DNA of 64,000 nucleotides, taken from Deltaproteobacteria bacterium. Lineage in GTDB: Bacteria; Desulfobacterota; Syntrophia; Syntrophales; Smithellaceae. The number at the start of each line of letters is the position of its first letter. Positions within the stretch are counted from its first letter, which is position 1. Both the position numbers and the translations under genes were made by a program. This document shows, piece after piece, positions 36,800 to 57,038 of the stretch. The stretch lies in NCBI GenBank assembly GCA_026388535.1, contig JAPLJP010000026.1, positions 1 to 64,000 of the forward strand. The letters run 5' to 3'. The notes under the pieces are model-generated. The model searched no databases and was not told the DNA's origin. It was given only the letters and a program-made list of their open reading frames with translations.

Positions 36800-38983
36800 A
36801 TGGAAATGGAAAAAATAGATATTATTGAAAAAGCAAAGTCTCAAAAGCGAACGGCATTAACAGAGGCTGAAGCAAAGGAAGTATTAAAAAAATATGGCAT
36901 TCCGGTAGTAGAAGAAAAAGCCGTTAAAACTATAGAAGAAGCGGAAATGGCAGCGGAAAAAATCAGTTATCCTGTAGTTTTAAAAGGATTGGGTTCTCGT
37001 CTTACACATAAAACAGAAAAAGGTTTGGTTAAGCTGAATTTAAAAAATAAGGAAGATGTTCGCTCTGCGGCGCTATATATAAAGGAAGCAGCCGGAAGTG
37101 ACTTAGAAGGTTTTTTAATTCAGCCGATGCTGGAAGGCAAGAGAGAGTTTGTTGCCGGTCTTTTCCATGACGAACAATTTGGCGCCACAGTAATGTTTGG
37201 CTTAGGTGGAATTTTTACAGAAGCAATCGGAGATGTTGTTTTCCGCCTGGCTCCCCTTGATGATAACGAAGCAGGAAAAATGATTGACGAGTTGCATGCA
37301 CAGAAATTACTGGGTGCGTTTCGCGGAGAAAATGCCCCGGACAAAAGCGCTCTGATTAAAACGCTTGTCGGTTTATCCCGGATTGGCATGGAAATACCGG
37401 ACATAAAAGAAATAGATATTAATCCTTTACTGGTTACGGCGGAAGGCAAGGTTACGGCTGTTGACGCTCTCGTTGTTTTGGGGAAAGCAATAGATCAAAG
37501 AATAACCCCTTTGCCGGTGAAGCCCAAAGATATTGAAAAAATATTTTATCCGAAATCAATTGCTTTTGTTGGCGCTTCTGCAAATCTTAGCAAATGGGGA
37601 CATTTGGTATACACTAATGTTGTTGCCGGGCAATACCAGGGGAAATTTTATTTAGTAAATGCCAAAGGTGAAGAAATTGCCGGTAATACTGTTTATAAAT
37701 CCGTTACAGAAATTCCTGGTCCGGTTGATCTCGCTGTTATTACAGTCCCCGCAGATAAGGTTTTGTCTCTAATACCTGAGATGAAGAAAAAGGCGATAAA
37801 AAGTGTATTACTTATATCGTCCGGTTTTAGTGAAACCGGCGCGGAAGGCAGGGTATTGGAAAATGAACTGGTAGAAAAAGCTCGAGAAGCAGGAATTTTA
37901 ATTCTTGGCCCCAATACAATGGGAATATGCAATCCCCACATATCTCTTTATTGCATGGGAACGCATGTGAGACCAAAAGCGGGAAGCACAGTTTTGGTTA
38001 CTCAATCAGGAAATTTGGGAACGCAATTATTGGCTTTTGCCGAAAAAGAAGGCATTGGCATCCGCGCGTTTGGCGGTTCAGGCAATGAAGCAATGATAAC
38101 AATTGAAGACGCTTTGGAAGGATTTGAAGTTGATGAGCTGACTAAAACAGTTGTTTTGTACATAGAAAGTATTAAAAACGGCCGAAGATTTTTTGAAGCG
38201 GCAAAACGTGTTGGCAGAAAAAAACCGATTATCGCCTTAAAAGGCGGGCGCACAGAGGCCGGCGCCCATGCGGCGGCCAGCCATACGGGCGCGATGGCTT
38301 CTGATATAAAAGTTTTTAAAGCAGCATGCCGGCAAGCAGGGATCATACAAGTAGAACACCCCATGGACTTGCTGGATCTTTCTGCGGCATTTTCCTCGTT
38401 ACCGTTGCCCCGAGGGAAAAAGGTTGGCGTTTTGACTTTAGGTGGAGGCTGGGGTGTTGTTGCCTCAGATTTATGCGTGGAAAATGGCTTGGAGATACCA
38501 AAATTATCAGAGGATGTAATTTCTCACATTAATAAATTGCTGCCGCCGTTTTGGAGCCACGCTAACCCGATAGATGTAGTCGGGGACATGAATACAGAGA
38601 CATATATGACAATTCTCGAAAAACTTCTTCAATGGTCTGAATGTGATGCCATAATCCACATGGGTATTATCGGAAGAATAATGATAATAAAAGCGACGCT
38701 GGAATCGACTATTGCTTTAGATAAGAAATATGATCGTAAATTTTTAGAAAAATCTTTGCGTTATCTGGAAGATTTTGAACAAAAGTCTATAGAGCGAACG
38801 GTAAAATTAATGGAAAAATATGATAAACCAATAATAGGGGTTTATTTGCTCAATGATGATAAATCACGAACAATAACTGATGTCGAAGACTGCAAATATA
38901 AAGGAGTAAACTTTATTACTCCAGAGAGGGCCGTTAAGGCATTAGCTAGAATGTATCAATATGCAGAATGGCTGAAGGGATAG
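36800..38983 (+). CDS. Acyl-CoA synthetase, ADP-forming (fused beta-alpha)
   Basis: 727-aa protein. Residues ~10-235 are the ATP-grasp beta part (LTEAEAKEVLKKYGIPVVEEKAV, LKGLGSRLTHKTEKGLVKLNL, EIDINPLLVTAEG). Residues ~245-727 are the CoA-binding and succinyl-CoA-synthetase-like alpha part (YPKSIAFVGASANLSKWGH, GPNTMGICNP, TQSGNLG, phospho-His region AAASHTGAMASD). It reversibly forms ATP from ADP, phosphate and an acyl-CoA, so it can conserve energy from acetyl- or acyl-CoA without pyrophosphate loss. The beta-first domain order is a known fused arrangement. A parS-like palindrome begins one base after its stop codon. Confidence 0.93.
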   Translation: MEMEKIDIIEKAKSQKRTALTEAEAKEVLKKYGIPVVEEKAVKTIEEAEMAAEKISYPVVLKGLGSRLTHKTEKGLVKLNLKNKEDVRSAALYIKEAAGSDLEGFLIQPMLEGKREFVAGLFHDEQFGATVMFGLGGIFTEAIGDVVFRLAPLDDNEAGKMIDELHAQKLLGAFRGENAPDKSALIKTLVGLSRIGMEIPDIKEIDINPLLVTAEGKVTAVDALVVLGKAIDQRITPLPVKPKDIEKIFYPKSIAFVGASANLSKWGHLVYTNVVAGQYQGKFYLVNAKGEEIAGNTVYKSVTEIPGPVDLAVITVPADKVLSLIPEMKKKAIKSVLLISSGFSETGAEGRVLENELVEKAREAGILILGPNTMGICNPHISLYCMGTHVRPKAGSTVLVTQSGNLGTQLLAFAEKEGIGIRAFGGSGNEAMITIEDALEGFEVDELTKTVVLYIESIKNGRRFFEAAKRVGRKKPIIALKGGRTEAGAHAAASHTGAMASDIKVFKAACRQAGIIQVEHPMDLLDLSAAFSSLPLPRGKKVGVLTLGGGWGVVASDLCVENGLEIPKLSEDVISHINKLLPPFWSHANPIDVVGDMNTETYMTILEKLLQWSECDAIIHMGIIGRIMIIKATLESTIALDKKYDRKFLEKSLRYLEDFEQKSIERTVKLMEKYDKPIIGVYLLNDDKSRTITDVEDCKYKGVNFITPERAVKALARMYQYAEWLKG

Positions 38984-38999
38984 TGTTTCACGTGAAACA
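38984..38999. other. parS-like centromere site
   Basis: TGTTTCACGTGAAACA, a perfect 16-bp palindrome identical to the consensus parS bound by chromosomal ParB. parS sites cluster near the replication origin; gyrB and gyrA at the left end are often origin-linked too. It differs from the TetR operator, which has the half-sites in the opposite order. Confidence 0.85.
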
Positions 39000-39263
39000 T
39001 TTTTATTCATTCCGTGTCGGGGTGAGCGATAAAACTAAAATCTCCGGAGTTACTCACTTCGTCAATTTATCGTTGCGGATAGATACCTACAGTATCTTCT
39101 AAGCAATCGATACCCCACATTTTGTGGCCAAAGTTTCTTTGACATATAAAATCTAAATTCTTATGGATCAACTATGAATAAGCAATGTTTTATCAAATAT
39201 CAAAAAAATGTTGGTTGAAGCAGGATCCGGTCTTTTTGATCTTATAATAAAAGGAGGTTTTTT

Positions 39264-40115
39264 ATGGCACTTAATGAAAAGGTAATTGGAAAGAAGTACT
39301 CAGTCCCACCTGTAGAAATATCAGCTCATGAAAGCATTTATTATGCTTTGGCCTACGGCGATGATAATGACGCCTATTTCGACAACCGGCGAGAGGGCGG
39401 CATCATTGCCCCTCCCATGTATGCCGTGAAATATGCGTCGGGTCCGGTAGTAGAAATCATTATGGACCAGGAAGTGGGCCTTAATTTCATGATGGTGGTG
39501 CACTATTCTCAAGAATTTGAGTGGCTGAAACCCGTCAAGCCCAATGACAGTATCAAAACCGAAGGCGTAATCAAAAAGATCGAGATCAAGGAAAAGGGCA
39601 GCATTTTGGGTTGGGAGACGATAAGCACCAACCAAAATGGTGAAATAGTGCTCAAGGCCAATTGGGAATTCTTCGACCGGAGTGCCGGTTCAGGAATACC
39701 TGAAGAGAAAAAAGAGGAAGAAGCGCAGGTACACGATATATTGTGGACTCAGGCCGTGAAGGTCAAAAATGGACAAACTTTCATCTACGCGGAGCCATCG
39801 GGAGACTACAACCCCATCCATGCGGACGATGCTTTTGCCAAGCAGGTCGGTCTTCCCGGCATCATACTTCAGGGACTTTGCACCATGGCCTTTGCCCATA
39901 AGGCTGTGACGGACAATCTTACCGGTCCGTATAGAAATCCACTGCTGGTGAAGAAGCTGAAAGTCCGTTTCGCCCGCCCGTTACTGCCTGGCCAGACCAT
40001 CACCTACCAGGCCTACAAGATCGGTACGGAAGCGGGAGGAACAAAGTACGGCATTATTGCCAGAAATGACGAAGGGAAAGACGTACTTCGAGATTGTTGG
40101 TGTATCATCGGATAA
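39264..40115 (+). CDS. Two-hotdog MaoC-type 2-enoyl-CoA hydratase
   Basis: 283-aa (R)-specific enoyl-CoA hydratase of the hydratase-2 type found in peroxisomal MFE-2. The N-terminal hotdog (~1-145) is non-catalytic and binds the acyl chain. The C-terminal hotdog (~155-283) carries the catalytic signature EPSGDYNPIHADDAFAKQVGLPGIILQGLCTMAF. Suited to long or branched acyl chains. RBS AAAGGAGG. Followed by the MFE-2-like dehydrogenase, which would oxidise its (3R)-hydroxyacyl-CoA product. Confidence 0.93.
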   Translation: MALNEKVIGKKYSVPPVEISAHESIYYALAYGDDNDAYFDNRREGGIIAPPMYAVKYASGPVVEIIMDQEVGLNFMMVVHYSQEFEWLKPVKPNDSIKTEGVIKKIEIKEKGSILGWETISTNQNGEIVLKANWEFFDRSAGSGIPEEKKEEEAQVHDILWTQAVKVKNGQTFIYAEPSGDYNPIHADDAFAKQVGLPGIILQGLCTMAFAHKAVTDNLTGPYRNPLLVKKLKVRFARPLLPGQTITYQAYKIGTEAGGTKYGIIARNDEGKDVLRDCWCIIG

Positions 40116-40219
40116 TTCCCGATTTCAAAGCGAAAATGATATCGAGTGTACAACAAGGCCAACAAAGATAGCGCTTTGATTCGGAATTGGAATAAAATTA
40201 AATTTTCTAGGAGGATAAT

Positions 40220-41128
40220 ATGTCAGAAATAAGATTTGATGGAAGAGTAGCAATCGTGACCGGAGCGGGAGCGGGTTTGGGTCGTTCCTATGCGTTAGAT
40301 TTTGCCAAAAGAGGCGCCAAGGTAGTCGTCAACGATCTAGGAGGGGCCCGCGACGGTTCCGGAGCCAGCCATAGTGCGGCCGATGTGGTTGTCAATGAGA
40401 TCAAGGCGCTGGGCGGCCAAGCCGTTGCCAACTATGATTCCGTGGCAACAGTCGCCGGTGGAGAGAACATCGTCAAGACCGCCGTTGACGCTTTTGGCAA
40501 GGTTGATATATTGATAAACAATGCCGGAATTCTCCGCGATAAAAGTTTTGCTAAGATGACGGAAGATGAGTGGGACCTGCTAATCAGCGTTCATCTCCGT
40601 GGTGCCTACTGCGTGACTAAACCGGCTTTCAACGTGATGCGCGATAATCAATATGGTCGTATCGTCTGCACCACTTCCGGTGCTGGCCTTTATGGCAATT
40701 TCGGCCAGGCCAATTACAGTTCCGCCAAGATGGGGCTGGTTGGACTCATGAACGTCCTGAACATCGAAGGCGCCAAATACAACATCAAGACGAATACCAT
40801 CGCCCCGGTTGCCGCCTCCCGATTGACCGAGGACGTTCTACCGCCTGACCTGTTTAATAAATTGAAACCGGATTATATAATGCCCATAGTCCTTTTCCTC
40901 GCTTCCGAGGCCAATCAAGATTCCGGCATGATCTTCAACTGCGGGGCCGGCTGGTACAGTCGTACGGCTATTGTTTGTGCCAAAGGCGTTACCATCGGCG
41001 ATGGCAAACGGCCGATAAAACCGGAAGAGATCCAGGATAACTGGAGTGTAATCAAGGGGCTGGACGAGGCGAAACCGCTGGGCAGCGTAGCCGAATCTTT
41101 CGAATATATGATGCCGCTTCTCAAATAA
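40220..41128 (+). CDS. (3R)-hydroxyacyl-CoA dehydrogenase, SDR family (MFE-2/HSD17B4-like)
   Basis: 302-aa short-chain dehydrogenase. NAD loop TGAGAGLGRSYALDFAKRGAKVVVNDLGG (T14-G20), NNAG at ~100-103, Ser153, Tyr166 and Lys170 in YSSAK. The sequence VVNDLGGARDGSGAS and the C-terminal part are those of the dehydrogenase domain of peroxisomal multifunctional enzyme 2. Consecutive with the hydratase-2, so the two genes reproduce the MFE-2 pathway as separate proteins. RBS TAGGAGG. A run of 10 G follows shortly after the stop. Confidence 0.95.
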   Translation: MSEIRFDGRVAIVTGAGAGLGRSYALDFAKRGAKVVVNDLGGARDGSGASHSAADVVVNEIKALGGQAVANYDSVATVAGGENIVKTAVDAFGKVDILINNAGILRDKSFAKMTEDEWDLLISVHLRGAYCVTKPAFNVMRDNQYGRIVCTTSGAGLYGNFGQANYSSAKMGLVGLMNVLNIEGAKYNIKTNTIAPVAASRLTEDVLPPDLFNKLKPDYIMPIVLFLASEANQDSGMIFNCGAGWYSRTAIVCAKGVTIGDGKRPIKPEEIQDNWSVIKGLDEAKPLGSVAESFEYMMPLLK

Positions 41129-41556
41129 GAAAATCTTTTTGGGGGGGGGGATTTGTAATCTCTCCCCAGGGATGTTTGACGGTATCATAAAAAACACTTG
41201 TTGTGTTATATCGGATGTAGTTAGAAACATTGAAATAATTAAAGATTTTTCGTCAATCTGTTCTTCAAATGGGTATAAATATGGGTAAAGTGTTGCTGAA
41301 AATGAGATAAAGATGCTAAATACTTAATATGTTTGACAGTTTATTCGTCAGGCTAAAAAATAAAATTAAAGTTGTTTCACTACTGTTCCAACGTTTTAGA
41401 TAGATGATGATGTGAAGTAGAGAAAACAATGAGAATAAGCAATGAAAAGTTATATACCTATTTGAAATATCTTTCTTCAGGATGCCATAGTCTCGCATTA
41501 AATTACGAGGATAGATGCAACCGCAACTAAAAAAACTAAAAAAATGGAGGGAAAAA
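41129..41556. other. Intergenic region with G10 tract
   Basis: 428 bp from the SDR stop to the chosen thiolase start. Contains a homopolymer of 10 G (41141-41150) and a small hairpin AACAC/GTGTT near 41190. GGAGGG at 41544-41549 is the thiolase RBS. Otherwise AT-rich without recognisable features; a promoter for thiolase is likely here. Confidence 0.5.
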
Positions 41557-42738
41557 ATGAGAAGAGTTAATGTTATTGGTGTTGGTATGACAAAATTTAC
41601 GTCACCCAAGGCTTTGCGTCCATACACGGAAATGGGTAAAGAAGCCCTTGCTGACGCTTTTAAAGATGCAGGTATCGAATATAAAGAAATCGAGCAAGCC
41701 TATTGCGGTTGGGTGTATGCCGACAGCTGTGCTGGCCAGAAGGTGCTCTATGATATGGGCATGACAGGTATTCCCATTTTCAACGTTAACAATAACTGCT
41801 CTACCGGATCGAACGCTCTCTTTTTGGCGCGCCAAGCAGTCGGCAGTGGTTTAGTTGAATGCGCCTTAGCGCTCGGTTTCGAGCAGATGAAGCCGGGGGC
41901 ACTGGGTATTGTCTTTGATGATCGCCCCATCCCCATGCAAACGTTTTTCGAAAAGACCTTTGAAGTTGTCCCGCCGACACCCGGCGCGGCTCCGGCGGCC
42001 ATGCTATTTGGCGGGGCCGGTTTTGAGCATCAAAAGAAATATGGTACCAAGAATGAGACTTTCGCGAAGATTGCCGTCAAGGCGCGCAAACATGCCGAGC
42101 ACAATGAGCGGGCCATCTTCAGGAACCTCGTAACGGTGGAGGAAGTGTTGGCTTCGCCGCCGCAGGCCCCACCCCTGACGCGGCTGCAATGTTGCCCACC
42201 GACCTGCGGCGCGGCTGCAGCAATTGTTTGTTCTGATAAATTTGCCAAGAAACACAAGATCAGCAAACCGATCTATATCGCGGCGCAATCCATGATCACG
42301 GATTTTGCCGGATCTTTTGAAAACCGAAGCTGCATGAGCATTTGCGGCTATGACATGACGGCCGCCGCGGCCAAGGCCGTATACAATGAGGCAGGCATCG
42401 GACCGGAAGATGTAAATGTGGTCGAGCTGCATGACTGCTTCACCGCTAATGAACTCATCACTTATGAGGGGCTGGGCCTGACCCCGGAAGGTACCGCAGA
42501 AAAATTCATAGAAGACGGTGACAACACTTACGGCGGTAAATATGTGACCAATCCTTCTGGTGGCTTGTTGTCTAAGGGACATCCGCTTGGCGCTACTGGC
42601 CTTGCCCAGTGCTCCGAACTTGTTTGGCAGCTTCGCGGTCAGGCAGGTGTTCGCCAAGTGGAAGGCGCCAAGATCGGTCTCCAGCACAATATCGGCCTTG
42701 GCGGAGCCTGTGTAGTAACCATGTACCGCAAGGATTGA
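41557..42738 (+). CDS. SCP2-type (sterol carrier protein x-like) thiolase
   Basis: 393-aa thiolase of the lipid-transfer/SCP-x subgroup. Nucleophile Cys81 in NVNNNCSTGSNALF; HDCFTANELI; NPSGGLLSKGHPLGATGLAQCSEL with the active-site His; and QHNIGLGGACVV. The SCP-x thiolases cleave 3-ketoacyl-CoAs with a 2-methyl branch as well as straight chains, so this fits branched-chain beta-oxidation. The track start adds 14 residues; ATG 41557 with GGAGGG 7 nt upstream gives the natural MRRVNVIGVGMTKF. Confidence 0.95.
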   Translation: MRRVNVIGVGMTKFTSPKALRPYTEMGKEALADAFKDAGIEYKEIEQAYCGWVYADSCAGQKVLYDMGMTGIPIFNVNNNCSTGSNALFLARQAVGSGLVECALALGFEQMKPGALGIVFDDRPIPMQTFFEKTFEVVPPTPGAAPAAMLFGGAGFEHQKKYGTKNETFAKIAVKARKHAEHNERAIFRNLVTVEEVLASPPQAPPLTRLQCCPPTCGAAAAIVCSDKFAKKHKISKPIYIAAQSMITDFAGSFENRSCMSICGYDMTAAAAKAVYNEAGIGPEDVNVVELHDCFTANELITYEGLGLTPEGTAEKFIEDGDNTYGGKYVTNPSGGLLSKGHPLGATGLAQCSELVWQLRGQAGVRQVEGAKIGLQHNIGLGGACVVTMYRKD

Positions 42739-42746
42739 GTAGTAAA

Positions 42747-42798
42747 CTGATTGCTTAAAGAAAGCGGGGGCATAATACCTGTTCTCAAATTAGAGGAA
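42747..42798 (+). repeat. Direct repeat R6, copy 1
   Basis: CTGATTGCTTAAAGAAAGCG followed by GGGGCATAATACCTGTTC and TCAAATTAG; a similar ~50-bp segment lies at 44417-44469 (CTGATTGCTT...CGGGGTCATGATACC TGTTCACAAATTAG). Both are in spacers following genes of the plus-strand island. Confidence 0.55.
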
Positions 42799-43027
42799 TA
42801 TAAATTTTATTTTTTCATAAGATATTTCTTCAGTATAATTGAACTTGGTATCGTTTCCGCAACAACATCCGCAACGCTGACCAGGATGTACTGTAAGGCT
42901 TTGTGTTGGTATGCGCTTTTATCACTATCAAGACGCTAGGCATCTTGCGCTTGAGCTTATGGCATTGATTGGGCGATAGGTGTAGACTGGTTCAGCCTGT
43001 TACATTTAAAAAAGGGGGGATAAATAA

Positions 43028-44266
43028 ATGTTTCAGCTCAATGAACAACAACAAATGATCCAGGATATGTTTCGCGACTATATGGCCAAAGAGATTCAAC
43101 CCAAGGTGGAAGCCATGGAGGACGGCACGATTTCCAGTCTCGAACTCTCCCGTAAACTTTACTCGGTAATCGGAGCGGCCGAGATGATCAGACCGTCTCT
43201 GGAAAAGCTGGCCAAAAAGCGCGAAGCGAATCCGGAAGAACGCATAGAGATGGCCAATGTCGTGTCTGACAGTGCCGGTGCCATGGGCGGTGATCCCATG
43301 ATCATGATGATCTTGTTGAAGGAAATAAGCCGGGTGAGCCCCGGCATGGCCATGAGTTTCGGGGTCAGCGTGGGGCTGGCCGGTATGGCAGTTCTCTCCA
43401 AAGGGACCGTCCGTCAGATCCGAGAATATGCCATACCATTAATGACCTTCGAGAAGATCGGTTCGTGGTGCCTGACCGAACCAGGTGCCGGCTCGGATGC
43501 CTTTGGCAGCATGAAGACCAAGGCGATACCAGACGGCAAAGGCGGCTATATCATCAACGGCACCAAAACATTCATCACTAATGCCCCCGAGGCTGATCTC
43601 TTCATCGTGTATGCCAAGCTAGATACGGGGCAACCTCCAGAGGAACGGCCGGTGCATGCCTTTATCCTCGAAAGGGGGATGCCGGGACTTACCACGGGTA
43701 AACCGTTCCATAAATTGGGCATGCGTGATTCACCTACGTCCGAGGTTTTTATGGATACCGTACGGCTCGAGAAGAAGCACCTTATCGGGGAAAACGAACA
43801 AAAGACCGGCGGAAGGACATCTACCAAGGATAGCCTCGGCAACGAAAGATCGGGTGTACCGCCAATATGCTTAGGAATAATCGAACGCTGTTATGAGGAA
43901 AGTATCAAATATGCCAAAGAGCGCGTTCAATTCGGCCGGCCAATCGGTGAATTTCAAGCAGTACAATTGAAGATTGCCCATATGTATATGCTGTATAAAA
44001 ATGTTGAGAATATCGTCTTCAGAACCGCCTGGATGCAGGCCAACGGCATTCGTGATGCCAGTTTCATCAACGCCAGTAAAGCGTATGCCAGTACCAGCGC
44101 TGTCGAAGTAACCAATATTGCTCTTCAAATTTATGGAGGTTATGGGTATATGCAAGAATATCCGATTGAAAAATTATATCGTGATGCTAAGTTGATGGAA
44201 TTAGGAGCAGGGACAACTGATATTAACCTATTAACCAGCGCCCGGATTGAATTGGATTTATTTTAA
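43028..44266 (+). CDS. Acyl-CoA dehydrogenase (isovaleryl/long-chain type base)
   Basis: 412-aa flavoenzyme. SWCLTEPGAGSDAFGSMKTKA, YAKERVQFGRPIGEFQAVQ and QIYGGYGYMQEYPIEKLYRDAK are family motifs. The C-terminal position of the base used by short/medium-chain enzymes reads MELGAGTTDI (no Glu), while a Glu is present in the helix GNERSGVPPICLGIIERC, matching the isovaleryl-CoA/long-chain type. Slight enlargement before the middle domain. RBS AAAGGGGGG. Supplies the first oxidation step for this cluster. Confidence 0.93.
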   Translation: MFQLNEQQQMIQDMFRDYMAKEIQPKVEAMEDGTISSLELSRKLYSVIGAAEMIRPSLEKLAKKREANPEERIEMANVVSDSAGAMGGDPMIMMILLKEISRVSPGMAMSFGVSVGLAGMAVLSKGTVRQIREYAIPLMTFEKIGSWCLTEPGAGSDAFGSMKTKAIPDGKGGYIINGTKTFITNAPEADLFIVYAKLDTGQPPEERPVHAFILERGMPGLTTGKPFHKLGMRDSPTSEVFMDTVRLEKKHLIGENEQKTGGRTSTKDSLGNERSGVPPICLGIIERCYEESIKYAKERVQFGRPIGEFQAVQLKIAHMYMLYKNVENIVFRTAWMQANGIRDASFINASKAYASTSAVEVTNIALQIYGGYGYMQEYPIEKLYRDAKLMELGAGTTDINLLTSARIELDLF

Positions 44267-44416
44267 GGCATACAGAAGAAACGAAAACAATGGACTTGAA
44301 AGCTGATACATCTATTGTTGGTCAGTGTGGCTTGAAAAATAATTCCGATCATCCGACAAACCTGCAAAGACAGAAGGGTATGGCAAAACCATGAATAGCA
44401 AAGATTGAAGATTAAG

Positions 44417-44469
44417 CTGATTGCTTCAGTAACGTCGGGGTCATGATACCTGTTCACAAATTAGCGGGA
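44417..44469 (+). repeat. Direct repeat R6, copy 2
   Basis: See copy at 42747; about 38 of 50 positions appear to match by eye. Confidence 0.55.
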
Positions 44470-44510
44470 GTTAAAGAATGTTATGATTAAATAAGCAGGG
44501 AGGCAACTTC

Positions 44511-45506
44511 ATGAAAAAGGTATTGGTCACGGGAGCCGGTGGCTTCATAGGGTCGCACGTTGTTGAGGAGTTATTAAAGGAAAACATCGAGGTCAGAGCT
44601 CTTATCAGACCGGGTGAATCCCTGACCAATCTGAAAGGGATGGATATTGAAAAGGTCGAAGGCGATGTCCTTGATAGCGGCGCCGTCTTAAAAGCCATGG
44701 CTGGCGTCGATACCGTCTTTCACTTGGCGGCCATCTTTTCCATCTGGATGAAAGACTGGAGCAGGATTTACGAAGTCAACATGCAGGGTACACAGAATGT
44801 GCTCTGGGCGGCAATGAAATCTAACATTGCCAGAGTCGTCTATACAAGCTCCATAGCCTCCATCGGCATCGCCCCGGGAAAGCAGCTAAGCGATGAAAAA
44901 ACGCCTTTCAACCAGTATACCTTGGGAAACCACTACGTCTTGACAAAATACCTCTCTCAGCAGATCGCTCGCGGCTTTGCCACAAACGGTCTTGATTTGA
45001 TTATCGTCAATCCCTGCTTTCCCTTCGGGACCAACGACACCGTCCCTACGCCCACGGGGCAGCTCATTGTCGATGTATTGAAGAGCAAAAACATGTTTGC
45101 TTTTCCCGGCGGCATCAATATCGTGGACGTGAGGGATGTTGCTCGGGGCCATGTTCTGGCCGCCAAGAAGGGCAGAACCGGCGAACTCTACATCCTCGGT
45201 AACAAGAATGTTACCATGAAGGAATTCATGCAACTGGTCTATCAGGCGGCCGGTTTTACGGTAAGGCCAATCTTCACTTTCCCGGTGCCTATGCTGAAAA
45301 TCGCCGCTTACGTTTTTAAATATTGGGCCGATAACATCGGTCACAAGACACCACTCACCACACCTCCTGAAGTGAGTTACGCCTCCCAGTACTTGTTCTT
45401 CGATAACTCAAAAACGAAAAATGAACTGGGGCTGACATTCACTCCCATCGAGGAATCGCTACGGGATTCCGTACGCTGGTTCCGCGAAAACCGCTATGCT
45501 CCATAG
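44511..45506 (+). CDS. NAD(P)-dependent epimerase/dehydratase-family reductase
   Basis: 331-aa extended SDR. NAD loop VLVTGAGGFIGSHVVEELL, GDVLD, HLAA, catalytic Ser/Tyr/Lys in YTSSIASIG and NHYVLTKYLSQQ. Similar to hopanoid-associated epimerase HpnA, dihydroflavonol reductase-like and 3-beta-hydroxysteroid dehydrogenase-like proteins; substrate not predictable from motifs. In this acyl-CoA context it may reduce or oxidise a beta-keto/hydroxy intermediate. RBS AGGGAGG. 69 bp before the first AMP-ligase. Confidence 0.87.
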   Translation: MKKVLVTGAGGFIGSHVVEELLKENIEVRALIRPGESLTNLKGMDIEKVEGDVLDSGAVLKAMAGVDTVFHLAAIFSIWMKDWSRIYEVNMQGTQNVLWAAMKSNIARVVYTSSIASIGIAPGKQLSDEKTPFNQYTLGNHYVLTKYLSQQIARGFATNGLDLIIVNPCFPFGTNDTVPTPTGQLIVDVLKSKNMFAFPGGINIVDVRDVARGHVLAAKKGRTGELYILGNKNVTMKEFMQLVYQAAGFTVRPIFTFPVPMLKIAAYVFKYWADNIGHKTPLTTPPEVSYASQYLFFDNSKTKNELGLTFTPIEESLRDSVRWFRENRYAP

Positions 45507-45575
45507 ATAGAAGTAAAAACAGAAAAACCATCGGCAGAAGTAGTTTAGCGACGTTTGATCAAAAAGGGAGGGCCT

Positions 45576-47315
45576 ATGTCAAGAAAGTGTTTCAGTCTGG
45601 TGCTGGCCGATATGGCCAAGTATAATCCAAGAGGAAAGGCAATCATTTACGGCGAGAAAAAAGTTACCTGGAAGGAGTTGAACAACCGGGTCAACCGCTT
45701 TGCCAACGCTTTGAAGTCCTTGGGCATAAAAAAAGGCGATCATGCCATCATTCTTTTTCACGACTGCCCCGAATTCATCGAGGCCAACTACGCCCTGCAG
45801 AAGATCGGCGCTGTGCCCATCCCCATGAACTTTCGTTTTGTCGCCCGGGAGATTGAATACCAGACCGATCAATCCGATTCGGTGGCCTTCATCTGCGAAG
45901 ACATCTTTATGGAACAGATACAAAAGGCACTGCCCAACTGCAAAAAACTCCAGACGGTGATCTGCGTGAGAAGGGGTATGGCGCCCCTACCGGCGGGGAT
46001 GCTGAACTACGAAGATCTCATGGATAAACATCAGCCTACGGAGCCGCCGCCGGTCACCACGGAGGAAGACATCTGTACTATCTCTTATACGGGCGGAACC
46101 ACGGGAATGCCCAAAGGAGTAGTTTTGACCTACAGAAATTTCTGGAATCTGGCCGGATCCATGTTCGGAGATCTGCTGGGCCGCGTGGCTGGCGATCCCA
46201 AGGCAAACTTCGGCCGGATCATCGGCACGCTGATGCCCATCCCGGGTATGGAAAAGACAATCAATACACTGATCGCCCCTAAAGGCGTCCGGCCTTTTCT
46301 GGCCCGGTCGATTCCCCGCCTCCTCCCCAAAACCTTTGGCACCCCCATGGGGCCTCTGCTCAACCGATTCACGGGTGGATTTTCCATGTTTCTCAACATG
46401 CCCCTTTTTCACATGGCCAATTACCAGGTTTTGATTATTGGCCCCATATCAGGGCTGTCGCGGTTCATCTTGCGACCCGGCATCAGCTTCGACCCAAAGG
46501 AGGCCATGGAGATCATCGCCAAGGAAAGACCCATACTGGTTATGTTCGTCCCCACCCAGTGGAAGAAGGTTCTGGACTACCCCGACCTGCAAAAGTTCAA
46601 CAGAAAGTCTGTGCTAGTGGCCATGACCGGTTCGGGCGTCAATCCCGCCCAGCAGAAGAAGAGGATTCTCAAAGAATTTCCCAACGCCCTGGTGGCTGAC
46701 GTCTTCGGTCAGACGGAGATGACTCCCGACACGAGCATCCGCTTGGATGCTTCCGAAGAAAGCCTAAAGGATCGCTGTGTGGGAAAACCCCTGGCCGGCG
46801 TCGAAATCAGAATCGTTGATGAAAGGGGGAAAGATGCCGCACCCGGAGAAGCGGGTGAGATCCTTTACCGTAGCGGCACCATCATGAAGGAGTACTATGG
46901 CGACCGGGAAAAGACTGCGGAAGTGATCAAGGACGGCTGGTTCCATTCCGGCGATCTGGGTTATCTGGACAAGGACGGGGAGATTATTGTCGTAGACCGG
47001 ATGAAGGAGACGATTTCCACGGGTGGTGAGAAGGTCTATCCCCATGAGGTGGAGGAGATTCTGGAGTCCCACACCAAGGTGGAACACGCCTGCGTGATCG
47101 GCGTTCCCGACGAGACATGGGGAAGTACCGTTCGGGCAATCATAGTTCCTTATGAAGGAGAACAGTTAACACAAGAGGAGATCATTGATTGGTGCCGTGA
47201 CAAGATGACCGGCTTCAAGAGGCCCAAGTCCGTGATCATCGTCGATGCCCTGCCCTTAAGCCCTGTGGGAAAGGTGATGCGGGCCCAGGTGAAAGAGAAG
47301 TACGGCCGTCCTTGA
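45576..47315 (+). CDS. AMP-forming acyl-CoA ligase 1
   Basis: 579-aa ANL-superfamily ligase. Phosphate loop ISYTGGTTGMPKGVVLTYRN, VFGQTEMTPDTS, WFHSGDLGYLDKDGEIIVVDRMKETISTGGEKVYPHEVEE and the C-terminal lysine in LSPVGKVMRAQVKEKYG are intact. A ~75-residue insertion rich in Pro/Gly (MFGDLLGRVAGDPKAN... to GFSMFLN) follows the phosphate loop before PLFHMANYQ. ATG 45576 with GGGAGG upstream is chosen instead of the track's 45555. Acyl substrate unknown; the island implies a long-chain or branched fatty acid. Confidence 0.92.
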   Translation: MSRKCFSLVLADMAKYNPRGKAIIYGEKKVTWKELNNRVNRFANALKSLGIKKGDHAIILFHDCPEFIEANYALQKIGAVPIPMNFRFVAREIEYQTDQSDSVAFICEDIFMEQIQKALPNCKKLQTVICVRRGMAPLPAGMLNYEDLMDKHQPTEPPPVTTEEDICTISYTGGTTGMPKGVVLTYRNFWNLAGSMFGDLLGRVAGDPKANFGRIIGTLMPIPGMEKTINTLIAPKGVRPFLARSIPRLLPKTFGTPMGPLLNRFTGGFSMFLNMPLFHMANYQVLIIGPISGLSRFILRPGISFDPKEAMEIIAKERPILVMFVPTQWKKVLDYPDLQKFNRKSVLVAMTGSGVNPAQQKKRILKEFPNALVADVFGQTEMTPDTSIRLDASEESLKDRCVGKPLAGVEIRIVDERGKDAAPGEAGEILYRSGTIMKEYYGDREKTAEVIKDGWFHSGDLGYLDKDGEIIVVDRMKETISTGGEKVYPHEVEEILESHTKVEHACVIGVPDETWGSTVRAIIVPYEGEQLTQEEIIDWCRDKMTGFKRPKSVIIVDALPLSPVGKVMRAQVKEKYGRP

Positions 47316-47353
47316 AATAGATAAAGACGAATGATGAAAATTGCATTTGCAGT

Positions 47354-47438
47354 AATCACGGGTATAAACCCCAACGCAAGCTTTGGAAACAAAGTCGAAA
47401 GCTCGCTGCGGGGTATTACACCCTCCGCTTTGCGGGAT
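47354..47438 (+). repeat. R2 repeat, copy d
   Basis: AATCACGGGTATAAACCCC, ACGCAAGCTTTGGAAACAAAG, GCTCGCTGCGGGGTATTACACCC, TCCGCTTTGCGGGAT. Same word order as copies a-c. Confidence 0.8.
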
Positions 47439-47489
47439 TGTTCGACTTACAAATTTCAATTCACTTCGTTTTTGAAATTTGAGTCTCAC
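47435..47489 (+). repeat. R1 hairpin repeat, copy h
   Basis: GGGATTGTTCGACTTA then hairpin 2: CAAATTTCAA (47450-47459), loop TTCACTTCGTTT, TTGAAATTTG (47472-47481), perfect 10-bp stem, then AGTCTCAC. Hairpin 1 is replaced by the end of R2 copy d. Confidence 0.8.
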
Positions 47490-47515
47490 AATAAACAATA
47501 AAAGGGGAAACACAA

Positions 47516-49366
47516 ATGGCAGACAAGAACAAAAGTTTTGTAAATCTGATGAAGGCCCTTCCCAAGCTTGCCATCATGGAACAGACTCGGGGGCTTTTGA
47601 GAAGCATTGTCACCCAATGGGGGACGAAAAATGCGCTGCGGATCGTATCACGCACCATCAAGAGGATGGGGATGGCGGCGGCCCTGAAAGGGTTACTCAA
47701 CTTCCGTCTGGAGAAATTCATGCCCAACCTTTTGATCTCCCAGTGGGATGTCTTGGGAGATCGGGAGGCAATCATCGCGGGAGACAAGAGAATCACCTTC
47801 CGGCATTTTAAGGACAGGGTCTTTCGGCTGGCCAACGGCCTCCAGGGGCTGGGTTTGAAACCGAAAGATAAGTTCGCCGAACTTCTCCACAACGGCAGCG
47901 AATTTTTCGAGGCTTTCTTCGCCGGTTCGTTCATCGGCTGTCCCATGCCCTTCTTGAACTGGCACATGCACGGAAACGAACTGGCGGAGGCGATCAATAG
48001 GGGCGCCCCTAAACTTCTCATCTTCGACGAGGAATTTACTGATGAAATCCTCGCCATTAAAGACAAGCTCACTACCATCCGCCATTTTGTCGTTGTTGGT
48101 AGCAAGGCGCCAGAGGGTATGATCCGCTATGAGGATCTGATCGCTCGCTCGCTCAACCACGAACCGGATATCCATTTCATCATAGCGCTAAATCCTTATA
48201 CCGGCGGGACTACGGGCACGCCCAAGAATGTCAACTTCTTCGACTCCATCGGCTATGCTTTTAGCGAACTGTCGGAGGCGCCCCAGGTTTCTCTTGGTGA
48301 GTATCTACGCTACATGGTCCTTCAGTTCAGTTTCCTATACTGGTATGGCGGCACCACGATCAAGGACCCTATCAGCCAAAACATGCGTTGCCTGCTGCCT
48401 GGTCCCCTCTACCATGCGGGAACCATTTCCGGTTGGGCGCCTTTCCTTCTTTTGGGTGGAACGGCTATCCCAGTCAGGGGTTTCGATCCGGAGGAATTTT
48501 TACAGATCATAGAGAAAGAGCGAGTCAACTGGGTATTTGTTGTACCCACCATGCTCCAACGTATTCTCGATCTGCCCCCCGAAGTGAGGAAGAAATACAA
48601 TCTCGGTTCCATGCACTCGCTGATCTGCGCGGCAGCTCCGGCCACTCCCGAGTTGAAACAGGCGATCAACAAGTACTTCCGCGAACAGGGTTGCAAGAAA
48701 AACATCTTCATGGAATTCTACGGTTCGTCGGAGACGGCCGTGACCTCGGTGCTCCTGCCGGGGGACTACGAGGGAAATCCACAGCGCTATGCCAGCGTCG
48801 GCAAGATCAGGTGCGCGGAAACGAAGGTTTTTGACAAGGAAAGTTTCCGTTGGTGCGCTCCCGGCGCCGAGGGGAGCATCATGACGCGAAGCCTCACGAC
48901 AATCAGCCTCAAGTATGCCGGTTCACCGGAAAAATTGGACTCCACCTTCGAAAACATAGAGGGGCGAAAATGGTTCGACGACGGGCTTCAGGGCTACATG
49001 GACAAGGATGGATTTTTATACCTGACCGGACGTCTCAAGGAAATGATCATCACCAGTGGTGTCAACATTTTCCCCTTGGAGATCGAATCCACCATTATTC
49101 GGCATCCCAAGGTGTTGGATGTGGGGGTCGTCCGCTATCCGGACAAGGAACTGGGTGAAGTCCCGGCCGCCGTGATCCAATTAAGAGCGGGGGAGGAATC
49201 CACACCCGAAGAGATCTGCAGCTTCTGCCGGAAAGAGGGCCTTATGGGGATGAAGATTCCCAGGGTGGTGGAATTCGTAAAAGAGCTTCCCCGGCACATC
49301 GACGGGAAACTAATAAAAAGAGAGTTGGAGGACAAATACTGGAAGGGCATAGAAAAGAGAGGATAA
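47516..49366 (+). CDS. AMP-forming acyl-CoA ligase-like protein 2, altered A7 motif
   Basis: 616-aa ANL-family protein with ~70 extra N-terminal residues. The phosphate loop is NPYTGGTTGTPKNVNF; MEFYGSSETAVTS and GRLKEMIITSGVNIFPLEIES are present, as is the C-terminal Lys region PRHIDGKLIKRELEDKYW. The normally invariant Asp of the A7 motif (W-F-x-x-G-D-x-G) is Leu: EGRKWFDDGLQGYMDKDGF. That Asp binds the ribose of ATP, so activity is doubtful or the neighbouring DD compensates. Could be a divergent ligase or a regulatory/inactive paralogue. Followed 12 bp later by the crotonase gene, so likely one operon. Confidence 0.87.
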   Translation: MADKNKSFVNLMKALPKLAIMEQTRGLLRSIVTQWGTKNALRIVSRTIKRMGMAAALKGLLNFRLEKFMPNLLISQWDVLGDREAIIAGDKRITFRHFKDRVFRLANGLQGLGLKPKDKFAELLHNGSEFFEAFFAGSFIGCPMPFLNWHMHGNELAEAINRGAPKLLIFDEEFTDEILAIKDKLTTIRHFVVVGSKAPEGMIRYEDLIARSLNHEPDIHFIIALNPYTGGTTGTPKNVNFFDSIGYAFSELSEAPQVSLGEYLRYMVLQFSFLYWYGGTTIKDPISQNMRCLLPGPLYHAGTISGWAPFLLLGGTAIPVRGFDPEEFLQIIEKERVNWVFVVPTMLQRILDLPPEVRKKYNLGSMHSLICAAAPATPELKQAINKYFREQGCKKNIFMEFYGSSETAVTSVLLPGDYEGNPQRYASVGKIRCAETKVFDKESFRWCAPGAEGSIMTRSLTTISLKYAGSPEKLDSTFENIEGRKWFDDGLQGYMDKDGFLYLTGRLKEMIITSGVNIFPLEIESTIIRHPKVLDVGVVRYPDKELGEVPAAVIQLRAGEESTPEEICSFCRKEGLMGMKIPRVVEFVKELPRHIDGKLIKRELEDKYWKGIEKRG

Positions 49367-49378
49367 GGAGGTTAGAGC

Positions 49379-50179
49379 ATGATGGAGTTCAAGACGATAA
49401 CCTTTAAAGAAGTAGAACCAGGCATTGGATTGATTAGTTTTAACCGACCCGCGCAACTAAACGCCATTAACGTGGCAATGCTGGCGGAGTTCGCGGAGCT
49501 CTTTGACTATCTTGCCCAAAACGATGCTGTAAGGGTTGTCATCATCACCGGGGAAGGACGGGGATTCTGCGCCGGGGCCGATCTAAGCGATGCGATCAAT
49601 TTCAAAGACACGGAGGCATTCTCCGGTCCGGAAGCGTTTCTCCGCATGGCCCAGGAACGATACTCAGCCATGATCCTCGGCCTGAGAAAGATTCCTCAGC
49701 CCATCATCTCCGCCGTAAACGGACCTGCGGCGGGCGGTGGCTTTGCTGTCGCCCTGGCCTCGGATCTGCGCCTGGCTTCCCCTGAAGCCTACTTCGTGGC
49801 CTCCTTCATAAATATCGGCCTCTCAGGCGGAGAACTGGGTTGTTCCTATTTTCTTCCCCGCCTGGTGGGCCTTTCCCATGCCGCCGATATCCTCTACACT
49901 GGCCGCAAGGTTAAAGCGAACGAAGCGGAAAGGATCGGCCTGGTCAGCCGAGTGGTGCCCAGAGAAGAGCTTATGGAAACCGCCCTCTCCTATGCGCACA
50001 TCATGCTGGGGAAAAGTGCCGGAGGTCTCCGACTGACCAAGCGAATCCTGGATCAGAATATCGATGCTCCCTCGCTGGAGGCGGCCGTCAACCTGGAGAA
50101 CAGAAACCAATCGATCATGGTTTTCTCCGGTGAATTCTTCAAACTCATCGAACCGTTTTTTAAAGGCGGTAAAAGGTAA
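49379..50179 (+). CDS. Enoyl-CoA hydratase/isomerase family protein
   Basis: 266-aa crotonase-fold protein. Oxyanion-hole motifs GRGFCAGADLSD and NGPAAGGGFAVALASDLRLA are present. The two catalytic Glu of enoyl-CoA hydratase are not at their usual places: GGGFAVA has Ala for the first and ASFINIG has Phe for the second, but an acid is present in GLSGGELGCSYFLPRLVG, as in a subgroup including dienoyl-CoA isomerase-like enzymes. It may therefore isomerise double bonds or act on an unusual acyl-CoA. RBS AAGGAGG; two adjacent ATG codons. Confidence 0.9.
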   Translation: MMEFKTITFKEVEPGIGLISFNRPAQLNAINVAMLAEFAELFDYLAQNDAVRVVIITGEGRGFCAGADLSDAINFKDTEAFSGPEAFLRMAQERYSAMILGLRKIPQPIISAVNGPAAGGGFAVALASDLRLASPEAYFVASFINIGLSGGELGCSYFLPRLVGLSHAADILYTGRKVKANEAERIGLVSRVVPREELMETALSYAHIMLGKSAGGLRLTKRILDQNIDAPSLEAAVNLENRNQSIMVFSGEFFKLIEPFFKGGKR

Positions 50180-50303
50180 ACTTTAAAAGTTCTTTAGCGG
50201 AAAAAAAGTTAATGACAAAATCTCTCCCACCCTTTAATATCAATTTTCAACGGATTGGAGGCAGGAGGGATTTTTTAGATGAGGCAGGAGAAAGAGTGCA
50301 CCC

Positions 50304-50942
50304 ATGAATAAGCAGCGGCGCCTGGGGTTAATATCGGACAGCCACGGAAACTTCCCAGCTACCGAAGAAGCAATAAATATCCTTGTCGACCAAGGTTGTG
50401 AGCAGGTGATCCATCTTGGCGATTTCTGTGACACCAATCGCCGCGACCGCATGGAAGATATTTTCCGGCTCTTTCAGGAACGGAGAGTTATTGCTGTCAA
50501 GGGGAACAACGACTACTTGATTGAGCTGGCTCTGTCCAACTGTGCCGCCGAGGAATATTCCGACCAAAGGTGGATGTATGAATTTCTAAAAGAGATTCCC
50601 ATGAAGGTGATTATGGATAATATTTGCTTTGCCCATTCCTTTCCCTTCGACTACCTGCGAGCCTTTTACGAACCCATAGATGTAGGCTCCACGGAACGGG
50701 CGTCTCTTCTCTTTGGGCAGATGCCCTATTGGATCCTATTCTGCGGCCATTCCCATACACCGGTATATTTTCAATTGAGCTATCCGGACAGTGTTCTTCG
50801 CAAGGTGGCACCACAGGGGAATAAACTTTTATTGGAACCTACCAGTCGTTATATATTCGTAGTTGGTTCCGCCGATGAAGGCGAGTGCGCTGTCTTCGAT
50901 GCGGAAGCATCGACATACGAGCGGATTAATATCCGCTCATGA
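50304..50942 (+). CDS. YfcE/MJ0936-type metallophosphoesterase
   Basis: 212-aa calcineurin-like phosphoesterase. Metal-binding motifs in order: ISDSHGN (D, H), HLGDFCD (D), KGNND (N, H/D), AHSFPFD and CGHSHTPVY. Family enzymes hydrolyse phosphodiesters in vitro; physiological substrates are unknown. Last gene of the plus-strand arm of the island and convergent with the next ligase. RBS AGGAG. Confidence 0.9.
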   Translation: MNKQRRLGLISDSHGNFPATEEAINILVDQGCEQVIHLGDFCDTNRRDRMEDIFRLFQERRVIAVKGNNDYLIELALSNCAAEEYSDQRWMYEFLKEIPMKVIMDNICFAHSFPFDYLRAFYEPIDVGSTERASLLFGQMPYWILFCGHSHTPVYFQLSYPDSVLRKVAPQGNKLLLEPTSRYIFVVGSADEGECAVFDAEASTYERINIRS

Positions 50943-50988
50943 GTTTATGTAAGGGGGAATACATGGTATCCCCCTTTGCAAGTTCAAG

Positions 50989-52611
50989 TTACAGCGATTT
51001 CAACTGACTATCTGCATAGAGCTTACGAAGCTCGCGTTTGTTGAATTTGCCCACGCTGGTCTTGGGTATCTCTTTTAAGAAGATGATCTCGTCGGGTATC
51101 CAAAAGGCGGCCTTGACCTTGTCCTTGAGAAAGTCCTTAATCTCATCAGCGGACACGCTCTGTCCCGGTGTTACAACGACACAGGCCAAAGGTCTTTCCT
51201 GCCATTTGGGGTGCGGTACGCCGATAATGGCGGCCTCAATCACCTTGGGGTGTGCCATGATCAAGTTTTCCATGTCCACCGAGGATATCCATTCGCCCGC
51301 GCTCTTTACCAGGTCCTTTTTCCGGTCCACAAGCCTTACATAACCCTCTTCGTCAATAGTGCCAATGTCGCCGGTGTGGTACCATCCATCGATGAATGTT
51401 TCTTTGGAACGCTCCGGGTCCTTGTAGTACTCGTTGGCGATCCAGGGACCCCTCAGGCAGACCTCGCCCCACTCTTTGCCGTCCATTTTCACCTCGGCTC
51501 CGGAATCACCCACGATCTTCATCTCCAGCCCCAAGGCGATAATACCGATGCTCGTCTTGACGTCATAGAGCTTCTCTGCCGGCCAATCAGCCATGTAGCT
51601 CTTGGGAATTGCCGCGGTCGCGAGCGGTGTGGTTTCGGTGGAGCCGTAAGCCTGTTTAATGGGGAAGTTGTACTTCTCGTTGAGATCGATCATGAGCTGC
51701 CTCGGGATTGCTGCGCCGCCGCTTGCTATGGTCTTCAATGACGAGAAGTCATGCCATCCGCCTTTCTCAAGGTAGTCATACAGGAGCATCCAAATAGTGG
51801 GAACCCCTGCGGTGAAGGTAACTTTTTCCCCCGCAATGGTGTGGCAGAGCTTATCCATATTGATTACTTCGCGGCCGGGAAGCACCTGCTTACAGCCGGC
51901 CCCCACAGCGGCGAAAGGTCCGCACCATGCATTAGCATGGAACATAGGCACGATATGCAGGATGCAGTCCGCCTCGCTGGCGCCGAAGGTAACGGCCACA
52001 GCATAGGTGTGGAGCATGATGGCCCGGTGGGAATACACAACCCCTTTGGGGTCGCCGGTGGTGGCCGAGGTATAGCAGATCATGGCCGGGTCCCACTCAG
52101 AGAGATCTTCAGGGAAATCATACTTCTCCGGGAACTGGGCGATGAGCTCATCGTACATGATAAGGTTCTTTATGCCCGATTCCGGCTTCTTTCCTGTGTG
52201 CGACAACACCACGATGTGCTTGACGGTCTTGAGCTGGTCTTTTATCATCTCCACGAACATAAGCAGGTCCTCATCCACGAAGATGACCTGGTCTTCGGCA
52301 TGATTGATGATGTAGACGAGATGATTCATGGGCAGTCTGAAGTTAACCGTGTGAAGAATCGCCCCGGAGCACGGAACTCCGAAGTAGAGTTCCAGGTGCC
52401 GGTGGTCGTTGAGTGCAATGCTCGCCACCCTGTCGCCGCGCTTGATACCTAAAGATTTTAGCGCATGAGCGAGCTGGCATACCCTCTTGTAGTAGTCCGC
52501 ATAGGTATATCGGTGGACACTTTCGGGAAACACTGAGACGATTTCTTTTTTGGGGAAATATTTTGCAGACCTCAACAGAAACGTTTTCAGAAGCAGGGGA
52601 AAATCCATCAT
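50989..52611 (-). CDS. AMP-forming fatty acyl-CoA ligase 3
   Basis: 540-aa medium/long-chain acyl-CoA ligase. All core motifs are intact: CYTSATTGDPKGVVYSHR, PMFHANAWCGPF, QAYGSTETTPLA, GWYHTGDIGTIDEEGYVRLVDRKKDLVKSAGEWISSVDME and PKTSVGKFNKRELR. It activates free fatty acids to acyl-CoA with ATP to AMP, or in syntrophs may run in reverse. RBS AGGAGG. Its upstream region has a direct repeat ACACATGT-TA-ACACATGT (52651-52668), a possible operator different from the TetR palindrome. Confidence 0.95.
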   Translation of the reverse strand: MMDFPLLLKTFLLRSAKYFPKKEIVSVFPESVHRYTYADYYKRVCQLAHALKSLGIKRGDRVASIALNDHRHLELYFGVPCSGAILHTVNFRLPMNHLVYIINHAEDQVIFVDEDLLMFVEMIKDQLKTVKHIVVLSHTGKKPESGIKNLIMYDELIAQFPEKYDFPEDLSEWDPAMICYTSATTGDPKGVVYSHRAIMLHTYAVAVTFGASEADCILHIVPMFHANAWCGPFAAVGAGCKQVLPGREVINMDKLCHTIAGEKVTFTAGVPTIWMLLYDYLEKGGWHDFSSLKTIASGGAAIPRQLMIDLNEKYNFPIKQAYGSTETTPLATAAIPKSYMADWPAEKLYDVKTSIGIIALGLEMKIVGDSGAEVKMDGKEWGEVCLRGPWIANEYYKDPERSKETFIDGWYHTGDIGTIDEEGYVRLVDRKKDLVKSAGEWISSVDMENLIMAHPKVIEAAIIGVPHPKWQERPLACVVVTPGQSVSADEIKDFLKDKVKAAFWIPDEIIFLKEIPKTSVGKFNKRELRKLYADSQLKSL

Positions 52612-52650
52612 GGTGAAGACCTCCTTATGGTATTATTGTATTACACATGT

Positions 52651-52668
52651 TAACACATGTATTAGCAC
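52651..52668. promoter_or_regulatory. Possible operator upstream of ligase 3
   Basis: Direct repeat ACACATGT TA ACACATGT, each containing the palindrome ACATGT, 40 bp upstream of the ligase start. Confidence 0.35.
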
Positions 52669-52772
52669 TACCGGAAAATCAAGAGTTTTTTATTCGTACA
52701 TTTTCTCGCCGTCTGCATTAGCGTTTACGGCATCGGTCTACACGTTGCGCACATCCTCCTTCGAAAGTTTTT

Positions 52773-52808
52773 ATCAGGGAGAGTGGAACTGTTTCCCCTC
52801 TCCCTGAT
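52773..52808. terminator. Strong hairpin downstream of FadE-type gene
   Basis: ATCAGGGAGAG (52773-52783) and CTCTCCCTGAT (52798-52808), perfect 11-bp stem, 14-nt loop, starting 6 bp after the stop of the minus-strand dehydrogenase. No T-tract follows in the transcript sense. Confidence 0.5.
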
Positions 52809-52813
52809 ATTTC

Positions 52814-54676: not shown

Positions 54677-54841
54677 ATCATTTCTCCTTTAATATAATTA
54701 AGTCAGTTTTTGACGCATTCATTTTTTGTCACCGCGGCGTACTTCTCCGGGTGGATTCAGGCGAAGGCAGATATATCTGCCTTCGCTCTGCGCAATGGTT
54801 AGTCTAAGGTGTGGTCGTGGTACCCTTACGATGAAAATAAC

Positions 54842-55303
54842 TTATTTAGAAGGAAGAGCGGCAATGAAGCTGCCGGTCAGTTTGACGCCTCCCAGGCCAT
54901 CGGCGGCCTGAATGTCGCACTGTATGCGGTTTTCCGCATCTTCCACGAATTTTTTCACTACCTTACCGGTGATGGTAATTGTAGCACGGGCTTTCGTATT
55001 TTCGAAATCTGTCAGATCTGCCGGTTCTGTCATTCCGGAGAAGCGAACCTTGAAATTTTTTAAGCACTTGTTATCGATCCATTCCGTAATGGCATTGCTT
55101 GTTATCCCCATGATCAACATTCCGTGGGCAATAACCCGCTGCATGCCGAACATGGCTACAAAGGTCTCGTCGTGATGCAGGGGATTGAAGTCTCCGGAGG
55201 CACCAGCATAACGGACCAAGTGAGTTCTTGTAATGGGAGCCGATGTGAAGGCGGGCATCGTATCTCCGATATTTATATCCTCGAAGTAGATTTTTTTAGC
55301 CAT
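54842..55303 (-). CDS. MaoC-type dehydratase, catalytic (HadB-like) subunit
   Basis: 153-aa hotdog protein with the full hydratase motif YAGASGDFNPLHHDETFVAMFGMQRVIAHGMLIMG. It is translated 11 bp after the 157-aa partner, reproducing the HadA-HadB layout in which one subunit binds the acyl chain and the other is catalytic. Probable (R)-specific enoyl-CoA hydratase. RBS AAAGGAG. Confidence 0.92.
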   Translation of the reverse strand: MAKKIYFEDINIGDTMPAFTSAPITRTHLVRYAGASGDFNPLHHDETFVAMFGMQRVIAHGMLIMGITSNAITEWIDNKCLKNFKVRFSGMTEPADLTDFENTKARATITITGKVVKKFVEDAENRIQCDIQAADGLGGVKLTGSFIAALPSK

Positions 55304-55314
55304 AGCGTTCTCCT

Positions 55315-55788
55315 TTATCTTTCTACCAGGGTAGAGCGGGTTTTGATAACGAGCTCTCCGTGTTGATTGCGGATTTCTGTTTCAATGACGGTGAAATCCA
55401 TGAATTTACCTGGTTTGTCTTTTTTTTCTTTTTCGTACATCTCGACTACTTTAGATTTTCCTGTCATGATGTCGCCGGGATGGATTGCGCCCAGGTAATT
55501 GTATTCCTCTTCGCCGTGAAGGAGCCTAATCAGGTCGATGCCCAGAGCCTGAATGAGTGGCAAAAGTCCTCCGGCTGCCCAGAGGGGGAAACTGGTTTGA
55601 AAGGTGGGTGGTGCGATGATGTCCTTGTAGTCAGCTTTTTTCGCTGCTTCCCGGTCTACATAGAGAGGATTTATCTGATCCTTACCTTCTTTCTGAGAGA
55701 TGGCCATAGCAAACTCGGCTATCTTTCCCTTTTCCACTTCAAAGGTGTATGAGGGGAACTCCATCCCTACTTTTGATTTATCTGCCAT
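55315..55788 (-). CDS. MaoC N-terminal-domain protein (HadA-like) subunit
   Basis: 157-aa hotdog protein of the FAS1-like dehydratase N-terminal type (GMEFPSYTFEVEKGKIAEFAMAIS, INPLYVDREAAKKADYKDIIAPPTFQTSF, HGEEEYNYLGAIHPGD). Lacks the Asp/His catalytic pair and is expected to dimerise with the downstream MaoC protein. It is the split counterpart of the fused hydratase at 39264. RBS AAGGAGG. Confidence 0.9.
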   Translation of the reverse strand: MADKSKVGMEFPSYTFEVEKGKIAEFAMAISQKEGKDQINPLYVDREAAKKADYKDIIAPPTFQTSFPLWAAGGLLPLIQALGIDLIRLLHGEEEYNYLGAIHPGDIMTGKSKVVEMYEKEKKDKPGKFMDFTVIETEIRNQHGELVIKTRSTLVER

Positions 55789-55844
55789 TTTGCCCTCCTT
55801 TTCTTAATATAATGAAAAACTTTAATTATGGATTTATTTAAAAA

Positions 55845-57026: not shown

Positions 57027-57038
57027 CGATAGCCTCCT

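Follow-up and report, generated by a model that had tools for sequence, protein, structure and literature searches.

A probable single parS site retained within the remnant of a decayed metallohydrolase gene in the order of Smithella

RESULTS

The site and its surroundings

The window, i.e. the whole stretch of 64 000 nt analysed here (the first 64 000 positions of contig JAPLJP010000026.1), contains the following features.

11–1717, + strand: 3′ part of gyrB; exact 141-base overlap, at the window start, with a contig carrying parA-parB-dnaA-dnaN-gyrB
1790–4285, + strand: gyrA, which indicates the origin region; 35 kb separate it from the parS candidate
36800–38983, + strand: acs, ADP-forming acyl-CoA/acetate-CoA ligase (727 aa) with intact C-terminus; neighbour of the site conserved in relatives
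38984–38999, no strand: candidate parS, exact consensus TGTTTCACGTGAAACA (16/16), the sole copy in the genome at 0–1 mismatch
38971–39111, − strand: decayed fragment of a PHP-domain (CehA/McbA-type) gene around the candidate parS, found by tblastn with intact PHP proteins of relatives
39264–58181, no strand: beta-oxidation-type island (MaoC, SDR, thiolase, acyl-CoA dehydrogenases, AMP-forming CoA ligases) between the site and htrA
58807–60273, − strand: htrA/degP serine protease, the neighbour on the other side of the site in relatives, split off here by the island

The 16-mer TGTTTCACGTGAAACA is a perfect palindrome in the window sequence and adjoins the stop codon of acs (TAG, 38981–38983) directly, with zero bases between; a preliminary description of this DNA, which had reported a perfect match to the parS consensus next to the acs stop, was confirmed on these points. 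A search of the window with up to three mismatches returned 38984–38999 as the sole match (shuffled sequences yield 0.28 matches at the same looseness), and it was the sole match at 0–1 mismatch in the 2.86 Mb draft genome (G000). The number of exact copies expected by chance in 2.86 Mb is 0.0009 with independent bases and 0.0007 with a first-order Markov model.

A separate observation concerns a palindromic word with two mismatches, TGATTCACGTGAATCA, situated within the argininosuccinate synthase gene on another contig of this genome (G000:C141, 1501–1516); several genomes belonging to genus g2 share a similar word with one mismatch, TGATTCACGTGAAACA.

The spacer downstream of acs had been called gene-poor. 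This was right in part, as its first ∼110 bp, together with the last bases of acs, cover the dead PHP gene fragment. On the minus strand the fragment reads IDCLEDTVGIYPQR*IDEVSNSGDFSFIAHPDTE*IKMFHVKHYPFS, with two stops (asterisks), and the palindrome encodes the FHVK part. The tblastn E-value was 1.8e-13 and, with the 16-mer masked, still 1.1e-8. We considered whether the PHP sequence had supplied the stop codon of acs and rejected this possibility, the C-terminus of the acs product being normal in length and sequence.

The island adds ∼19.7 kb between the site and htrA relative to the congeneric genome G003, in which acs, the site and htrA adjoin; it is absent at the G003 locus, and parts of it are common to G014 and G011. 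As the island stands between the site and htrA, the 16-mer is at the edge of the island and not, as had been described, inside it.

Partition genes and distance to the origin

In the G000 assembly a 5.5 kb contig (C172) has parA, parB, dnaA, dnaN and the beginning of gyrB in succession, with parA abutting parB, next to dnaA. The end of this contig is identical to the first 141 bases of the window, within gyrB, which indicates that one contig continues into the other; they also align next to each other on a single congeneric contig, G003:C9. Across this exact overlap the distance from the site is 42.4 kb to parB and 41 kb to dnaA. Among the 19 relatives with the site and parB on one contig, the distance ranged from 8.7 to 137 kb, with a median of 43.5 kb.

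The ParB protein has ParB_N, HTH_ParB and ParB_C domains and a GERRWRAAQ motif. By our reading of its alignment to the solved ParB and Noc chains, it has R, T, K and G at the positions equivalent to 173, 179, 184 and 201 of the Caulobacter protein; R173 and G201 are the invariant pair of ParB, the RxxG class (PMC7383237). An SMC gene is present in the genome as well. Absence of the ParB family, which would have spoken against the initial interpretation of the palindrome as a ParB-type parS, was not observed: parB was found beside parA and dnaA, and the predicted ParB with parS-type residues, ParA and SMC all support that interpretation.

The proximity to the origin suggested earlier was supported too. 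Cumulative GC skew, computed in part, on contigs of relatives, had its minimum in G003 at parB-dnaA, near the left of the contig, and not at the site; on the G033 contig the skew stayed negative as far as parB and was then close to zero, the turn being less marked than in G003. Since the skew turns at parB-dnaA, the site should mark the origin region from one side rather than the origin itself.

The spacing of 42 kb between parS and parAB exceeds that in many model species, and it could be counted against the identification of the 16-mer as parS. It is, however, within the zone of ∼650 kb around oriC in which one parS suffices in Pseudomonas aeruginosa (PMC5098823).

Distribution of the site in the order

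We examined 155 genomes from the order to which Smithella belongs; the motif, at one mismatch or fewer, was present in 132 of them and the reversed motif, used as a control, in 3. Exactly one site was present in 110 of the 132 motif-bearing genomes, and in two of the 23 motif-negative genomes the 14-bp core is preserved and the outermost base on each side differs. One predicted parS per genome is, then, usually the rule across the order. This bears on the earlier proposal that copies of the word should cluster near the origin, with a lack of clustering taken as an argument against parS. There is indeed no cluster, because the site is single; a lone origin-proximal parS is nevertheless the norm in the order.

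In the genus of the window the site is exact in every member where it was found. No site was detected, even as the 14-bp core with one mismatch, in G001, G004 and G011 of this genus and in G007 (71% complete). The genomes compared are nearly all drafts, and these absences reflect, at least partly, gaps in the assemblies: the G004 contig ends 117 bp past htrA, about where the site is expected; in G011 the island side is assembled and the acs side is not; G001 and G007 yielded no contig with htrA.

In G013, contig C262 (L043) has two parS-like sites, at 1187 and 7829, along with dnaA-dnaN-gyrB and yidC/mnmE-like genes; it looks unlike the rest of the genus and is probably a contaminant contig in the draft. 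A second parS locus in G005 (C63, L036, position 5712) has an intact PHP gene, and the HtrA tree places it with another genus; this, too, is probably contamination.

The PHP gene hosting the site in relatives

The genes flanking the site in relatives are, nearly everywhere, acs and htrA/degP, one to each side. Varied flanks within the genus had suggested a mobile or wandering parS; we rejected this idea because acs and htrA are the neighbours of the site in nearly all cases. In most genomes outside the genus of the window a PHP-domain gene lies between acs and htrA or nearby, with the site inside it. The gene belongs to the CehA/McbA-type metallohydrolases (PF02811, NF038032), and the protein passes the Pfam cut-off narrowly (26.6 against 26.4 bits); a protein search detected the product in 82 of 155 genomes. 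Within the gene the site encodes the peptide FHVK.

The first codon test was made with PHP genes fetched for holding the site; given this ascertainment, it was repeated with genes from the protein search alone. Of the 69 PHP genes thus found, 68 contain the 14-bp core GTTTCACGTGAAAC at identical codon positions, and the remaining gene departs from it by a single mismatch. The FHVK residues are invariant in the 69 genes, and the codon entropy at F, H, V and K is 0, 0.11, 0 and 0, as compared with at least 0.63 (mean 1.46) at 76 other near-invariant residues. Both the FHVK peptide and the site are absent from the PHP homologues that other orders of the phylum possess. Frozen codons, together with homologues that do without the peptide, argue that the DNA word rather than the peptide has been conserved.

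Loss of the PHP gene

The intact PHP gene is gone in the genus of the window, with a remnant persisting around the site in the window itself. The same fragment is present in G014, and between the two genomes 19 of 116 positions beside the site differ, whereas all 16 bases of the site are identical. G017, which belongs to another genus, has kept the site intact within a more extensive PHP pseudogene interrupted by stops; in G025, G031, G035 and G083 the site is still surrounded by short PHP stubs. When the state of the PHP gene was placed on an HtrA tree, obtained by a quick method from a single gene, six changes were counted, of which at least four are forced by well supported branches. These comparisons indicate that the PHP gene decayed or vanished in the genus of the window and in several other lineages while the predicted parS stayed.

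DISCUSSION

The sequence data make it very probable that the 16-mer at 38984–38999 is the single parS of this chromosome. The candidate is exact, single and origin-proximal, and in relatives it appears strongly constrained at the DNA level. By analogy with characterised ParABS systems, ParB encoded 42 kb away would nucleate on the 16-mer, close as a CTP clamp and slide onto the flanking DNA; ParA would then move the ParB-parS complex, making the origin region the first to separate, and clustered ParB may help to load SMC.

As to the history of the locus, the ancestor of most of the order would have had parS inside a PHP metallohydrolase gene that acs and htrA flanked. This gene decayed in the lineage of the window, where the beta-oxidation island adjoins the site, with all 16 bases left intact. 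Loss of the only parS should be costly; therefore, changes were likely tolerated beside it and not through it. We consider it fairly probable that the lone centromere of the order is a 14-bp word placed in a coding gene, which froze the codons it occupies and outlived the gene in several lineages, a stub of ∼45 codons lasting longest. A lone parS would be hard to replace and could therefore serve as a fixed point while its surroundings are reshaped by deletions, pseudogenisation and a 20-kb island.

Other readings of the palindrome have to be weighed. Together with the following TTTTTATT it could be the intrinsic terminator of acs, the match to parS being incidental; an inverted repeat right after the acs stop, followed by a T-rich run, is what one would expect of such an element. 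The scan for terminators does not select the palindrome, though, and the fold of the stretch is unexceptional (z −1.4). In most relatives the same 14–16 bp are found in the middle of an ORF, with frozen codons, where a terminator would be senseless, and wherever the PHP gene is intact the end of acs is ∼700 bp away from the site. We rejected the terminator, which we regard as highly improbable. A neutral match, a product of chance or a relic, with the working centromere elsewhere, is equally improbable: the genome holds no other copy at 0–1 mismatch, the word is exact in all members of the genus with a site, its core is kept in nearly all PHP genes, and its 16 bases are shared with G014 in the midst of a fragment that has diverged and has acquired two stops. 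These observations outweigh the distance from parAB, the position within a dead gene and the few congeneric drafts without the site, all of which such a reading would accommodate.

Still less credible is that the 16-mer is an old coding word of the PHP gene, retained for the peptide FHVK and devoid of function in DNA. While the invariance of the four residues agrees with it, selection on the peptide would leave their codons as free as those of the other near-invariant residues, which they are not; moreover, the word survives where the protein is dead or gone, and homologues in other orders do without the peptide. Both the codon data and the gene-less lineages already contradict this reading.

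The 16-mer would be an ordinary parS with an unusual history. It shares with the chromosomal sites of the Bacillus subtilis/Caulobacter crescentus type the identical 16-bp consensus and a location near dnaA and parAB, and the genome encodes ParA, SMC and a cognate-looking ParB with the RxxG residues. It differs from them in being one site only, 42 kb from parAB, and in being embedded in the PHP gene across the order and persisting in the dead remnant of that gene. Chromosomes with a single parS are known, e.g. in Xanthomonas campestris (PMC7333895); unlike the site there, the one described here can be traced across an order in the same syntenic location, even as its host gene decayed. The Noc/NBS system of Firmicutes also pairs a palindrome with a protein of a related family, and this ParB does score against the Noc model, at 248 bits, below the cut-off of 315 bits. 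However, the site is parS and not NBS, and residues 173 and 201 of the protein are R and G, as against Q and R in Noc.

Why the number and position of parS sites vary, and what holds the sites in place, has been named an open question in a review (PMC7333895). A single site that can be followed through >100 genomes, having been acquired in one gene whose codons then froze, and kept when the gene was lost some six times, offers a natural experiment on the indispensability of one parS. A literature search that did not take in the principal survey of where parS sites occur (Livny et al. 2007) found no account of a parS kept in a coding sequence or pseudogene. On the practical side, the acs-PHP-htrA locus provides a centromere marker for draft assemblies of poorly culturable syntrophic bacteria.

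Two genomes have a pair of parS sites ∼0.7–0.8 kb apart. In G033 (L064) the sites are at 9290 and 9994, one in the PHP gene and the other just past its stop; in G021 (L049) they are at 9999 and 10813, one in the PHP gene and the other inside htrA. These two genomes are possible intermediates before loss of the PHP gene, which a lineage may be able to discard once it has a second site.
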